The notes below the pieces were generated by a model. The model was not told where the DNA came from, did not search any database, and saw nothing but the letters and a program-made list of their open reading frames with translations. Source: Candidatus Peregrinibacteria bacterium (GTDB taxonomy: Bacteria > Patescibacteriota > Gracilibacteria > Peribacterales > Peribacteraceae). Taken from it: a stretch of DNA of 64,000 nucleotides. The stretch lies in contig JACPMB010000009.1 in the NCBI GenBank assembly GCA_016186175.1, positions 89,973 to 153,972 on the forward strand, given 5' to 3'. The translations under genes and the position numbers were made by a program. This document shows positions 25,848-54,180 of this stretch, piece after piece. How positions within the stretch are numbered: the first letter of the stretch is position 1; each line of letters begins with the position of its first letter.

Positions 25848-26000
25848 TTCATGACAGTATACCAGAAATTATCTTTCGTCTGAAGGAGGGCGTAGGAATA
25901 TAGGAATAGCAGGATATTGCGAGCCATAGCCAAAATTCCTGACTGCCATGTCCTAACGCTCAATTACTCTATTATCCTATTGCCCTATTGCCTCAGCCAC

Positions 26001-27074
26001 ATGTCCCGCGATTATTACGACGTTCTTGGACTTCAGGAATCCGCCTCCGCGGACGACATCAAGCAGGCCTACCGCAAACTGAGCAAGGAATGGCATCCGG
26101 ACAAACACAAAGGTGACAAGAAAGCCGAGGAAAAATTCAAAAAAATCAACGAAGCATACGAAACGCTCAATGACCCCAAAAAGAAACAGATGTATGACCA
26201 GTTCGGAACGATGGGTTCGGGCTCGGGACCGGGCGCCGGGTTTGGCGGGTTTGATTTTTCCGGATTCACCGGCGGCGGGCACATGAATTTTTCCGATTTG
26301 TTCGAGGGGTTTTTTGGAGGAAGGGAGCGACGCAGCCAGTCGCGGGAGGAACGCGGGGATGATCGGGAAATCAGCATCACCATCGCTTTTGTGGAAGCCG
26401 TATCTGGAACAAATCGCGAGTTGCGCGTTAAAAAATTGGTTGCTTGCAAAACGTGCTCGGGATCTGGAACGGAATCTGGGGGCAGGCTGGTCGTATGCGA
26501 AAAATGCGAAGGAACCGGGCAGATCATCCGCCAGTCACAGTCATTCTTCGGTTTGATTCAGCAATCCGTCGTCTGTAATAACTGCCGCGGGTCCGGAAAA
26601 GTTCCGGAACATCCGTGCAAAGCGTGCAGGGGGGAAGGCCGCATTGCCGACGACGCGACAATCAAGGTCGCCGTGCCGGCCGGAATAGGCGACGGGCAGT
26701 CCCTGCGCATCCGCGGAGATGGAGACGCGGCGCGTCGAGGAGGCACACCCGGCGATCTCTACGTGCGAATTCGCGTTGAACAAGACAGGCGTTTCGCACG
26801 CGACGGGGACGATATAAACACGACTGTTTCAATCGGAGTCCCCGACGCCATCCTTGGCGCCGCCATTCCAATCGAAACGGTCCATGGGCCGATACAGTTG
26901 AAAATCCACCCCGGCACGCAATCTGGCCAGATTTTCCGCATCAAGCACAAGGGAATGCCGGTCCTAAACACAAGCAGGTTCGGGGATCACTATGTTAAGG
27001 TGAATGTGGAGATCCCTTCCAGAACAAGCCGGGAGGTGAGACAATTAGTGGAAGAGTGGAAACGCCTGTCCTAG
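26001..27074 (+). CDS. dnaJ: Chaperone protein DnaJ
   Basis: J-domain with HPDK; G/F region; four CxxCxGxG zinc motifs; stop codon TAG lies in the repeat element at 27072. Confidence 0.95.
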   Translation: MSRDYYDVLGLQESASADDIKQAYRKLSKEWHPDKHKGDKKAEEKFKKINEAYETLNDPKKKQMYDQFGTMGSGSGPGAGFGGFDFSGFTGGGHMNFSDLFEGFFGGRERRSQSREERGDDREISITIAFVEAVSGTNRELRVKKLVACKTCSGSGTESGGRLVVCEKCEGTGQIIRQSQSFFGLIQQSVVCNNCRGSGKVPEHPCKACRGEGRIADDATIKVAVPAGIGDGQSLRIRGDGDAARRGGTPGDLYVRIRVEQDRRFARDGDDINTTVSIGVPDAILGAAIPIETVHGPIQLKIHPGTQSGQIFRIKHKGMPVLNTSRFGDHYVKVNVEIPSRTSREVRQLVEEWKRLS

Positions 27075-27163
27075 ACACGGCGCCGTTTTTCGTCAAACAT
27101 TCATTAGCTTTACACAGCCATATTTCTTGGAGTGATGTCCACGAAGAAACGGCGCCGTGTCTA
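27072..27163. repeat. Terminal-inverted-repeat element (MITE-like), copy 1
   Basis: TAGACACGGCGCCGTTTTTCGTC....ACGAAGAAACGGCGCCGTGTCTA; its reverse complement aligns along its length with 53792-53886. Confidence 0.85.
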
Positions 27164-27724
27164 AATATCAAGATTCTCCAGTCCATCGTCCTGCGCCATG
27201 ACCGGAGAGAGCTCTTCGCCCTGGGCGGCGTCCGGCGGCCGAGCACCGCGGACTTTTTCGTTTTTCAACTTAAGAACGATCTGACGATAATCACCCTCGC
27301 CAACGCTTTCGGTCGCGAGATCGCTCATGCCGGGGGTGTTCGCTATATGAAGATGCACTATCCGGCGCAAGTAAGGACTCATTGGAGCCAGGGCGATGCG
27401 CGAGCCGGTTCTGCGGACGAAGTCGGCTTTTTGCTCGGCGATTTTACGGACCTTGTCTTCCCTCATGCGGCAATATCCGTCCACATCAATTACGATGAAC
27501 GGGCTTTTTTCCATATGTTCTTTTGCCCGGACTATTGACTTAACCAGATTCTGCAGACCGTTCAGTGTTTCGCCGTGCCATCCTATTATGCGGCTGGCCT
27601 GATTGCTTACGATGTCCACGCGCGTGATGCCTCCGTCTTCCTCGGCCACATTTATGGCGTCGAAAGGCAGCGAGAGAAACTTGAGTAATTTGCCGAGAGT
27701 GTCTTGAATGAAGGCATGATCCAT
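27161..27724 (-). CDS. jag: KH/R3H-domain RNA-binding protein (Jag/KhpB-like)
   Basis: IIGWHGETLNGLQNLVKSIV (KH); R3H-like RIVHLHIANTPGMSDLATESVGEGDYRQIVL. Confidence 0.85.
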   Translation of the reverse strand: MDHAFIQDTLGKLLKFLSLPFDAINVAEEDGGITRVDIVSNQASRIIGWHGETLNGLQNLVKSIVRAKEHMEKSPFIVIDVDGYCRMREDKVRKIAEQKADFVRRTGSRIALAPMSPYLRRIVHLHIANTPGMSDLATESVGEGDYRQIVLKLKNEKVRGARPPDAAQGEELSPVMAQDDGLENLDI

Positions 27725-27748: not shown

Positions 27749-27870
27749 GGGAACCTCTGAAAAATGCCTCCTGCTTCGTCAGCTGTGCCAAAATTTCGCT
27801 CAACGTATGCCGATACGCCTCGCGAAATTTTGGCTTGCTTCCTCGCATGAGGCGATTTTTGAGAGGTTCC
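27749..27870. repeat. Long imperfect palindromic element with GGAACCTCT ends
   Basis: GGAACCTCTGAAAAATGCCTC...GAGGCGATTTTTGAGAGGTTCC; inner arms GCCAAAATTTCGC / GCGAAATTTTGGC; another AGAGGTTCC at 27910-27918. Confidence 0.8.
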
Positions 27871-27924
27871 TTCCCATCGTGATGTTTTGGTGATGCGTAT
27901 CATTTTGCAGAGGTTCCGAAGAAC

Positions 27925-31045: not shown

Positions 31046-31270
31046 ATGAGCACTAACATCACACCGTTCGAAGATTACAACATTCGCCGTCTGTACGACG
31101 AAGAAAAAGATATTTGGTATTTTTCCGTGACGGACATCATTCAGGCACTGACACAGCAAAAGAATTTTCAGGCGGCTCGCAATTACTGGAAAGTCCTCAA
31201 AAACCGCTTAAAGAAGGAAGGTAGTCAGGTGGTTACAGATTGTAACCGACTGAAATTACGAGCCGCCTGA
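31046..31270 (+). pseudogene. Truncated BRO-N (prophage antirepressor-like) protein
   Basis: DYNIRRLYDEEKDIWYFSVTDIIQALTQQKNFQAARNYWKVLKNRLKKEGSQVVTDCNRLKLRAA then stop inside the expected domain. Confidence 0.6.
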
Positions 31271-31348
31271 AAAATAGGCTGGTGCTGACGAAGGGCTGCG
31301 TTCGAAAGGCGTGACCTCTGTATCTACGTTCGGAACAGGAACGAACTC

Positions 31349-52265: not shown

Positions 52266-53723
52266 CTAATTTAATACCGGCAGTTTCTTATGCCACTCCG
52301 TGGCTTGCTCGTACGCGTGCGCTGCGCGGAGGATAGTGGATTCCTGCCATCGCGCGCTCATCAGCTGGAGGCCGATCGGCAACCCTTCGCCGGAAAATCC
52401 GCACGGCACCGAGAGCGCAGGAATTCCTGCCATAACCGCGCCGTCCATAAAAATGTCTTCCAGATACAGGGCCACGGGATCATCCGCGTGAGCTCCGATG
52501 GTAAAAGCCGGGGTGGGGGAGACCGGCGCCAGAATCACATCCACCGAACGGAACGCCTTGTCAAAATCCCCGCCGATCAGCGTTCGCACTTTCTGCGCCT
52601 GGCGGTAATACGCGTCGTAGTACCCGGCGGAAAGGGCGTAGGTTCCGATCATGATCCGGCGTTTTACTTCCGGACCGAAGCCGGTGCTGCGCACCTGCTC
52701 ATAATAATCCAGAAGATTTTTGTATTTCCCGGCCGTGTGTCCGTAGCGTATGCCGTCGTAGCGGGCCATGTTTGAACTCACTTCGCATGGGCAAAGAACG
52801 TAATAGGCGGCGAGCGCGTATTTGGTATGGGGGAGGGAGATGTCTGCAAGCGTCGCGCCGAGTTTTCCGAAGGCCTCCGCGGCGGCCTTCACGGAGGCCT
52901 CCACCTCATTGCTCATGCCTTTGATTAAGTATTCCTTAGGGATGCCGATCTTAATGCCCTTCATGCCCTTTTTCAGATCAGCACGATAGTCAGGTACAGG
53001 CATGTCGGCCGTCGTTGCATCAAGCGGGTCCTTTCCAGCTATGGCCTGGAGGACGATTGCGAGATCTTCCACTGTGCGGCACAGCGGCCCGATGGTGTCG
53101 AGCGAACTGGCCATGCTCATCACTCCAAAACGGCTGGTGCGGCCGTATGTTGTTCGCAAGCCGGCAATGCCGCAGAAGCCGGCAGGTTGCCGTATCGAAC
53201 CACCGGTATCAGTGCCCAGCGCGAAAATTCCTTCTCCGGCGCATACTCCAGCCGCAGAACCTCCCGATGAGCCGCCGGCCACGCGGGATGTGTCCCACGG
53301 ATTCCTGGTAACGCCATAGCATGAGGATTCCGTGGAGCACCCCATTGTGAATTCATCGGTATTCGTCTTTGCTATGCTGATCGCTCCGGCGGTTTTCAGC
53401 CTTTTCGTAGTGGTTGAATCAAAAGGCGGCACGTAATTCTTTTCGCGCAGGATATTGCTGCATGCGGTGGTGGGAACTCCTTCTTCGCAATAAACGTCTT
53501 TGGCAAGATACGGGATGCCGGTTAATGGATTGTCGAATTTTTTGTCGTCATCAATTTTATTGGCTTCAACCAGGGCTCTTTCAAAGTTCCGATGCACCAC
53601 GGCATTGATCTTCCCGTCTATTTTTTCAATGCGCTCAATGCAGGCGCGCACCAGTTCGTTCGAGCTTACTTCGCGTCCGGCTAATTTGTCATGCGCCTGT
53701 GCGATGGTGAGAGCGGAAAGCAT
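52266..53723 (-). CDS. gatA: Glutamyl-tRNA(Gln) amidotransferase subunit A
   Basis: AVVHRNFERAL...GIPYLAKDVYCEEGVPTTACSNIL; GGSSGGSAAGVCAGEGIFALGTDTGGSIRQPAGFCG; start moved to MLSALTIAQAHDKL. Confidence 0.95.
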   Translation of the reverse strand: MLSALTIAQAHDKLAGREVSSNELVRACIERIEKIDGKINAVVHRNFERALVEANKIDDDKKFDNPLTGIPYLAKDVYCEEGVPTTACSNILREKNYVPPFDSTTTKRLKTAGAISIAKTNTDEFTMGCSTESSCYGVTRNPWDTSRVAGGSSGGSAAGVCAGEGIFALGTDTGGSIRQPAGFCGIAGLRTTYGRTSRFGVMSMASSLDTIGPLCRTVEDLAIVLQAIAGKDPLDATTADMPVPDYRADLKKGMKGIKIGIPKEYLIKGMSNEVEASVKAAAEAFGKLGATLADISLPHTKYALAAYYVLCPCEVSSNMARYDGIRYGHTAGKYKNLLDYYEQVRSTGFGPEVKRRIMIGTYALSAGYYDAYYRQAQKVRTLIGGDFDKAFRSVDVILAPVSPTPAFTIGAHADDPVALYLEDIFMDGAVMAGIPALSVPCGFSGEGLPIGLQLMSARWQESTILRAAHAYEQATEWHKKLPVLN

Positions 53724-53791: not shown

Positions 53792-53886
53792 TAGACACGG
53801 AGTCGTTTCTTCGTGAACATCACTCCTAGAAGTACAGCTATAGAAAGCAAACGAATGATTATTGAAGAGAAACGACGCCGTGTCTA
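53792..53886. repeat. Terminal-inverted-repeat element (MITE-like), copy 2
   Basis: TAGACACGGAGTCGTTTCTTCGTGAACATCACTCC....GAAACGACGCCGTGTCTA; homologous to the reverse complement of 27072-27163. Confidence 0.85.
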
Positions 53887-54180
53887 GCCGTGCGCGGAAG
53901 GCGACACGATTTGGTGATCGCTAAGAGGCAGGGGACTGCAGGAAAGCAGCTTTTCCGGATCCGTTCCTGCGCTTCGAACTACGTCGTCACGCAGCGCGTT
54001 TGTCCGGCCAGTCACCTGCGCCGTTGCCTCCACGCCGTTCGTATCCACTTCCTGGAGCACGCTGACGTATTGCAGGATTGATGTGAGTTCTTTGGAGTAT
54101 CTCGAAACCTCGTCTTCCGTAAGACTAAGACGAGCGAGCTTCGCAATATGCCGGACCTGCTCTTTCGTGAGTTGCGTCAT
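53884..54180 (-). CDS. gatC: Glutamyl-tRNA(Gln) amidotransferase subunit C
   Basis: LTKEQVRHIAKLARLSLTEDEVSRYSKELTSILQYVSVLQEVDTNGVEATAQV. Confidence 0.92.
   Translation of the reverse strand: MTQLTKEQVRHIAKLARLSLTEDEVSRYSKELTSILQYVSVLQEVDTNGVEATAQVTGRTNALRDDVVRSAGTDPEKLLSCSPLPLSDHQIVSPSAHG

Follow-up and report, generated by a model that had tools for sequence, protein, structure and literature searches.

The 92-bp sequence that separates the convergent genes dnaJ and jag in the window (the whole stretch of 64,000 nucleotides analysed here) was inserted there as a member of a new MITE family, itself of a familiar type, as demonstrated by an empty site in a congener. The earlier note had described it as a short non-autonomous element, and this description is borne out: it is short and non-coding, is present in at least 13 copies, carries terminal inverted repeats, and is flanked by a 2-bp target-site duplication for which the congener retains the empty site. 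Very probably the complete history is that a MITE that inserts at TA, preferably within CTAG, duplicated the TA, was moved in trans by an enzyme of the IS630/Tc1-mariner type, and left the interrupted stop codons rebuilt as TAG. The features at the dnaJ-jag site are as follows.

27072 to 27163, unstranded: element copy 1 including both TA duplications; it occupies the whole dnaJ-jag interval, and the empty site is in congener G002.
27072 to 27073, unstranded: left TA target duplication, bases 1 and 2 of the dnaJ stop codon.
27162 to 27163, unstranded: right TA target duplication, bases 1 and 2 (minus strand) of the jag stop codon.
27072 to 27088, plus strand: left terminal inverted repeat, TA included, TAGACACGGCGCCGTTT, which holds the self-palindrome ACGGCGCCGT.
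27147 to 27163, minus strand: right terminal inverted repeat, 17 bp pairing perfectly with the left one.
25917 to 27074, plus strand: dnaJ; stop TAG made of the duplicated TA and the element's G, TAA in the congener.
27161 to 27724, minus strand: jag/khpB (KH and R3H domains); stop TAG made of the duplicated TA and the element's G, TAG in the congener.

Copy 1 reads TAGACACGGCGCCGTTT...AAACGGCGCCGTGTCTA, with ends TAGACACGG and a 17-bp perfect inverted repeat whose arms lie 58 bp apart. A longer arm had been proposed earlier (TTTxTTCGT...ACGAAxAAA), which holds for the first 17 bp and is imperfect beyond them. Coordinates and protein domains agree with the claims that the stop codons of dnaJ and jag form the two ends of the element and that it fills the gap between them: the dnaJ product contains DnaJ, DnaJ_C, and DnaJ_CXXCXGXG domains and its gene stops with TAG at 27072-27074, while the jag/khpB product contains R3H and KH domains and its minus-strand stop appears as CTA at 27161-27163. 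The element has no coding content and matched no known RNA family. As single-stranded RNA the whole sequence is predicted to fold at -40.6 kcal/mol (z = -7.5). Its arms recur far above chance, with 6 matches at up to 3 mismatches compared to 0.25 expected from shuffles.

TA flanks nearly all copies on both sides, most often as C-TA...TA-G, so that in most copies a C precedes and a G follows the TA pair as expected of a CTAG target. The bases immediately inside the TA are invariant (G on the left, C on the right), whereas those outside vary (A, T, or G on the right, C or T on the left). Non-TA duplications, identical on both sides, were found once each as TG (L026), TC (L099), and GA (L097). 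The constant inner bases, variable outer bases, and matched non-TA duplications indicate that the duplication is 2 bp long and that the inner G and C belong to the element itself. A 4-bp CTAR duplication was ruled out, since the outer bases of some copies differ between the two sides and since the empty site in G002 speaks against it.

In G002 the element is absent, and dnaJ and jag are convergent with overlapping stop codons (CTAA). The empty site there reads ...GTCTCTCCTAAATATCCAAATTCTCC / TCCTAAATATCC. Removing the element and one TA from the sequence studied here leaves ...GCCTGTCCTAAATATCAAGATTCTCC / TCCTAAATATCA, which is exactly the overlapping-stop arrangement of G002, and the element thus entered stop codons that already existed. 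Upon insertion the dnaJ stop changed from TAA to TAG and that of jag from TAG to TAG, the TA having formerly been common to both. This makes the site a clear case of a transposon lying in overlapping convergent stops with neither protein changed. An empty site of equal length was also found for copy L024. Among seven proteins that end on a copy and have G002 homologues, five end at the exact homologous residue (those of dnaJ, jag, thyA, gatC, and the ABC exporter), and the other two, a TsaE protein and an ABC ATPase, end no more than 1 residue from the G002 stop. The earlier suggestion that the element brings a stop codon at each end is therefore correct for the third base, the G, which comes from the element, but not for the T and A, which are duplicated host target, and the stops themselves were already present at the homologous positions in G002.

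The assembly from which the window was taken (G000; 904,290 bp, 82% complete) contains at least 13 full copies of 90-96 bp in both orientations, the other 12 being 80-97% identical to copy 1. This genome-wide search refutes the possibility, raised in the earlier note, that no further copies exist, and the homologous copy which that note placed at 53792 was recovered between gatC and the gene called gatA by position.

53792 to 53886, unstranded: element copy 2, 95 bp, 80% identical to copy 1, in reverse orientation.
53884 to 54180, minus strand: gatC; its stop TAG coincides with the right end of copy 2, and the homologous congener position has TAA.
52266 to 53723, minus strand: 485-aa gene, gatA by position, on the same strand and downstream of gatC, with its start 68 bp from copy 2.

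Other copies were located upstream of genes and between divergent genes. At two further places in G000 the bare 20-bp palindrome TAGACACGGCGCCGTGTCTA occurs with the rest of the element absent, which a deletion joining the CGGCGCCG palindromes of the left and right arms could produce. One of these solo palindromes amounts to a net 18-bp insertion within a called gene and introduces no stop codon in that gene's frame. At adk (L025:1501-1544), a copy replaces the C-terminus of the protein and adds a tail, giving the new end ...ALDTAPFLRGHHSKI.

Two other repeats are found in the window. Upstream of jag, positions 27750-27917 hold another dispersed repeat that folds back on itself, about 168 bp long with ends GGAACCTCTGAAAAAT / ATTTTGCAGAGGTTCC; similar copies number roughly a dozen in 733 kb of own-genome sequence, and most of them lie between called genes. 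At 31165-31273, a single 20-nt inverted repeat, TTTTCAGGCGGCTCGCAATT, is 95% complementary with arms 69 nt apart and overlaps a called gene of 99 aa at its 3' end. It had no second copy in the own-genome sequence examined.

Across 74 genomes searched at the family level by pattern and by similarity, related copies were patchy, being present in G068, G026, and G079, which represent three further genera of this family. G068 carries at least 11 paired copies of 61 to 289 bp, G026 one relative, and G079 two. Neither search found full copies in the congeners G001-G003. The interior of the element can be aligned among G000, G068, and G079, and this together with the patchy presence fits an old mobile family. 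In some G068 copies (L089, L091, L093, L098, and L099, at about 1501-1790) REP-like palindromes such as CCACGGGCGTAAGCCCGTGG are nested in mid-element. In G002, the sequence TAGACACTG lies at the homologous ABC-exporter stop (L232; own-genome counterpart L043:1501-1520) and is perhaps a decayed remnant. Arm matches in viral contigs, Bacillota, and a Nonlabens MAG were single arms with no partner and were rejected as chance, and single matches in G103, G281, G307, and G343 were likewise taken as chance.

Copy ends were tabulated against stop codons for 25 copies, 13 from G000, 11 from G068, and 1 from G026. Thirteen of the 25 end on the stop codon of a gene, or 10 if only Pfam-recognised genes are counted, compared to 4.7 expected for random placement among non-disruptive CTAG sites (P = 1.5e-4 and P = 0.01, respectively). 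By genome, 6 of 13 full copies in G000 end on an open-frame stop (5 with Pfam matches), as do 6 of 11 in G068 (4 with Pfam matches) and the only copy in G026; one of the two solo palindromes in G000 also ends on a stop. A frame of 180 aa that ends on copy L022 matches no Pfam family, lacks a congener homologue, and was left out of the conservative total. Double stops shared by convergent genes were seen three times, at dnaJ/jag (G000), pyrF-like/SLH protein (G068), and ribD-like/FMN reductase (G026), whereas 0.13-0.15 were expected (P = 4e-4).

The coincidence with stop codons is real and has a simple structural reason. Insertion occurs at a TA dinucleotide, preferably within CTAG, and duplicates the TA, with cutting and pasting done in trans by a presumed IS630/Tc1-mariner-type transposase that is now absent or unassembled. 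As both inverted ends begin with G, stop codons would tolerate the insertion, TA|A or TA|G being rebuilt as TAG whichever strand the gene is on and whichever way the element points. The preferred target CTAG is also what two convergent TAG stops form where they overlap, and an insertion there, where such genes are tightly packed, can spare both proteins. This suggested rule, in which a TA target and a G-first end make TAG on both strands, may let TA-inserting elements live in very compact genomes. It is rather probable that the placement is a by-product, TA and CTAG being common at stops and other insertions having been purged from a gene-dense genome, an explanation which concerns placement only and is compatible with a MITE. 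Stops make up 5-6% of non-coding TA sites. Among non-coding CTAG sites they make up 13% in G000 and 25% in G068 (the latter background taken from one 400-kb contig), shares that are understated because the genes were called with a home-made simple hexamer script, covering 84% of the sequence, that misses genes and thus overcounts "intergenic" sites. With genes missed and promoters probably purged, part of the stop excess is expected from selection alone, and the gaps in gene calling, together with counter-selection at other sites, probably account for some of it. The observed counts, both of all stops and of double stops, lie above the expected ones and speak against the by-product explanation. 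That the G-first ends and CTAG targeting are adapted to, and actively prefer, stop codons or overlapping stop codons appears improbable. If true, the element would be a gene-safe transposon whose niche fits small genomes with densely packed genes.

With regard to the enzyme, the two traits that mark IS630/Tc1-mariner insertion, TA target duplication and CTAG target preference, are both present. The same MITE may instead have been moved by another DDE enzyme making short duplications (e.g., of the IS5 type) or by an undescribed transposase, which we consider possible but unlikely. In its favor, the IS630-type domain PF13358 (DDE_3) was absent from G000, G001-3, G068-70, G026, and G034, including every carrier genome tested, and PF13358 loci elsewhere in the class have inverted ends that differ from the repeats of the element. 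The transposase with matching inverted repeats sought at the earlier note's suggestion was thus found neither in the carriers tested nor at these loci, and the exact arm pattern, searched in one genome per species for 85,462 species and in the class, revealed no autonomous partner; the partner may be extinct, diverged, or unassembled. The inverted repeats of a MITE are usually common to an autonomous element, but this is not required once the partner has been lost, and absence from G000 is weak evidence since that genome is 82% complete. Against the other enzymes, PF01609 (DDE_Tnp_1), which covers many IS4/IS5 enzymes, was absent as well from G000, G001-3, G068-70, and G026, the 4-bp duplication is excluded, and a TA duplicated within CTAG, now and then replaced by a non-TA pair, is what characterises IS630 (PMC2170065). 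The element works like one mobilised by IS630/Tc1-mariner enzymes but, the carriers G000, G068, and G026 being without PF13358, is not filed as a proven member.

Two further explanations dispense with such an enzyme altogether. A palindromic terminator family, which the earlier note had offered as an alternative, or an mRNA-stabilising hairpin selected at gene ends and not mobile, would account for the strong fold and for copies that frequently lie directly after a stop codon. It is very improbable given the target duplication, the congener's empty site at this pair of stops, and copies that lie upstream of genes, in the gaps between divergent ones, and, as the net 18-bp insertion, inside a gene; neither the intrinsic-terminator pattern (GC stem, short loop, T tract) nor the corresponding U-tract was found. 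Least credible is an element of the REP/RAYT type, mobilised by a Y1 transposase that acts on single strands, despite the self-palindrome in each arm, the two palindromes that occur alone, and those nested in G068 copies. Y1-type insertion is not known to make a target duplication, whereas here a 2-bp duplication is shown with its empty site, and no linked Y1 transposase was identified, a motif scan over 733 kb of own-genome sequence giving one weak Y1 motif, within a 768-residue open frame. The reading preferred here remains a MITE mobilised by an IS630/Tc1-mariner-type enzyme.

The family adds a MITE to a lineage for which none was found described in the open-licence literature. Words beginning with "transpos" do not occur in a paper on five Peribacteria genomes (PMC4736985), nor does the phrase "stop codon" in a review of prokaryotic MITEs (PMC10969869). 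Among known systems, IS630 and ISY100, which are of Tc1/mariner type, also duplicate TA; a CTAG preference is reported for IS630 in the title of Tenzen and Ohtsubo 1991, as cited in PMC2170065, and rare non-TA duplications in vitro for ISY100 of the IS630 family (PMC2170065). They encode a transposase, whereas the present element encodes nothing. The Correia/NEMIS elements of Neisseria are, in the account given in PMC2229807, likewise small MITEs with inverted ends, terminal TA, and target duplication, but they differ in sequence and host and often lie upstream of genes and carry promoters (PMC10969869). Of 58 overlaps between pneumococcal BOX elements and annotated genes, 36 have their stop codon encoded within the repeat, dnaJ being one example, according to the BOX passages of PMC3049150, which provides a precedent for a repeat supplying gene stop codons. 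BOX is, unlike the present element, modular, 67-637 bp long, and linked to ISSpn2 rather than IS630-Spn1, and the two-sided stop seen here is not reported for it in those passages. The anatomy of the element matches that of IS630/Tc1-mariner-type MITEs such as pneumococcal RUP, a MITE of IS630-Spn1. As described in the RUP passages of PMC2229807 and PMC3049150, RUP is also about 100 bp long with inverted ends, terminal TA, and TA target sites, folds tightly, and is over-represented between convergent genes. Its ends resemble a resident IS630 element, in contrast to the present case, in which no such element was found, and exact placement on stop codons, a feature of the present element, is not stated for RUP in those passages. 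Of these systems, RUP is the nearest in size and in likely mechanism.
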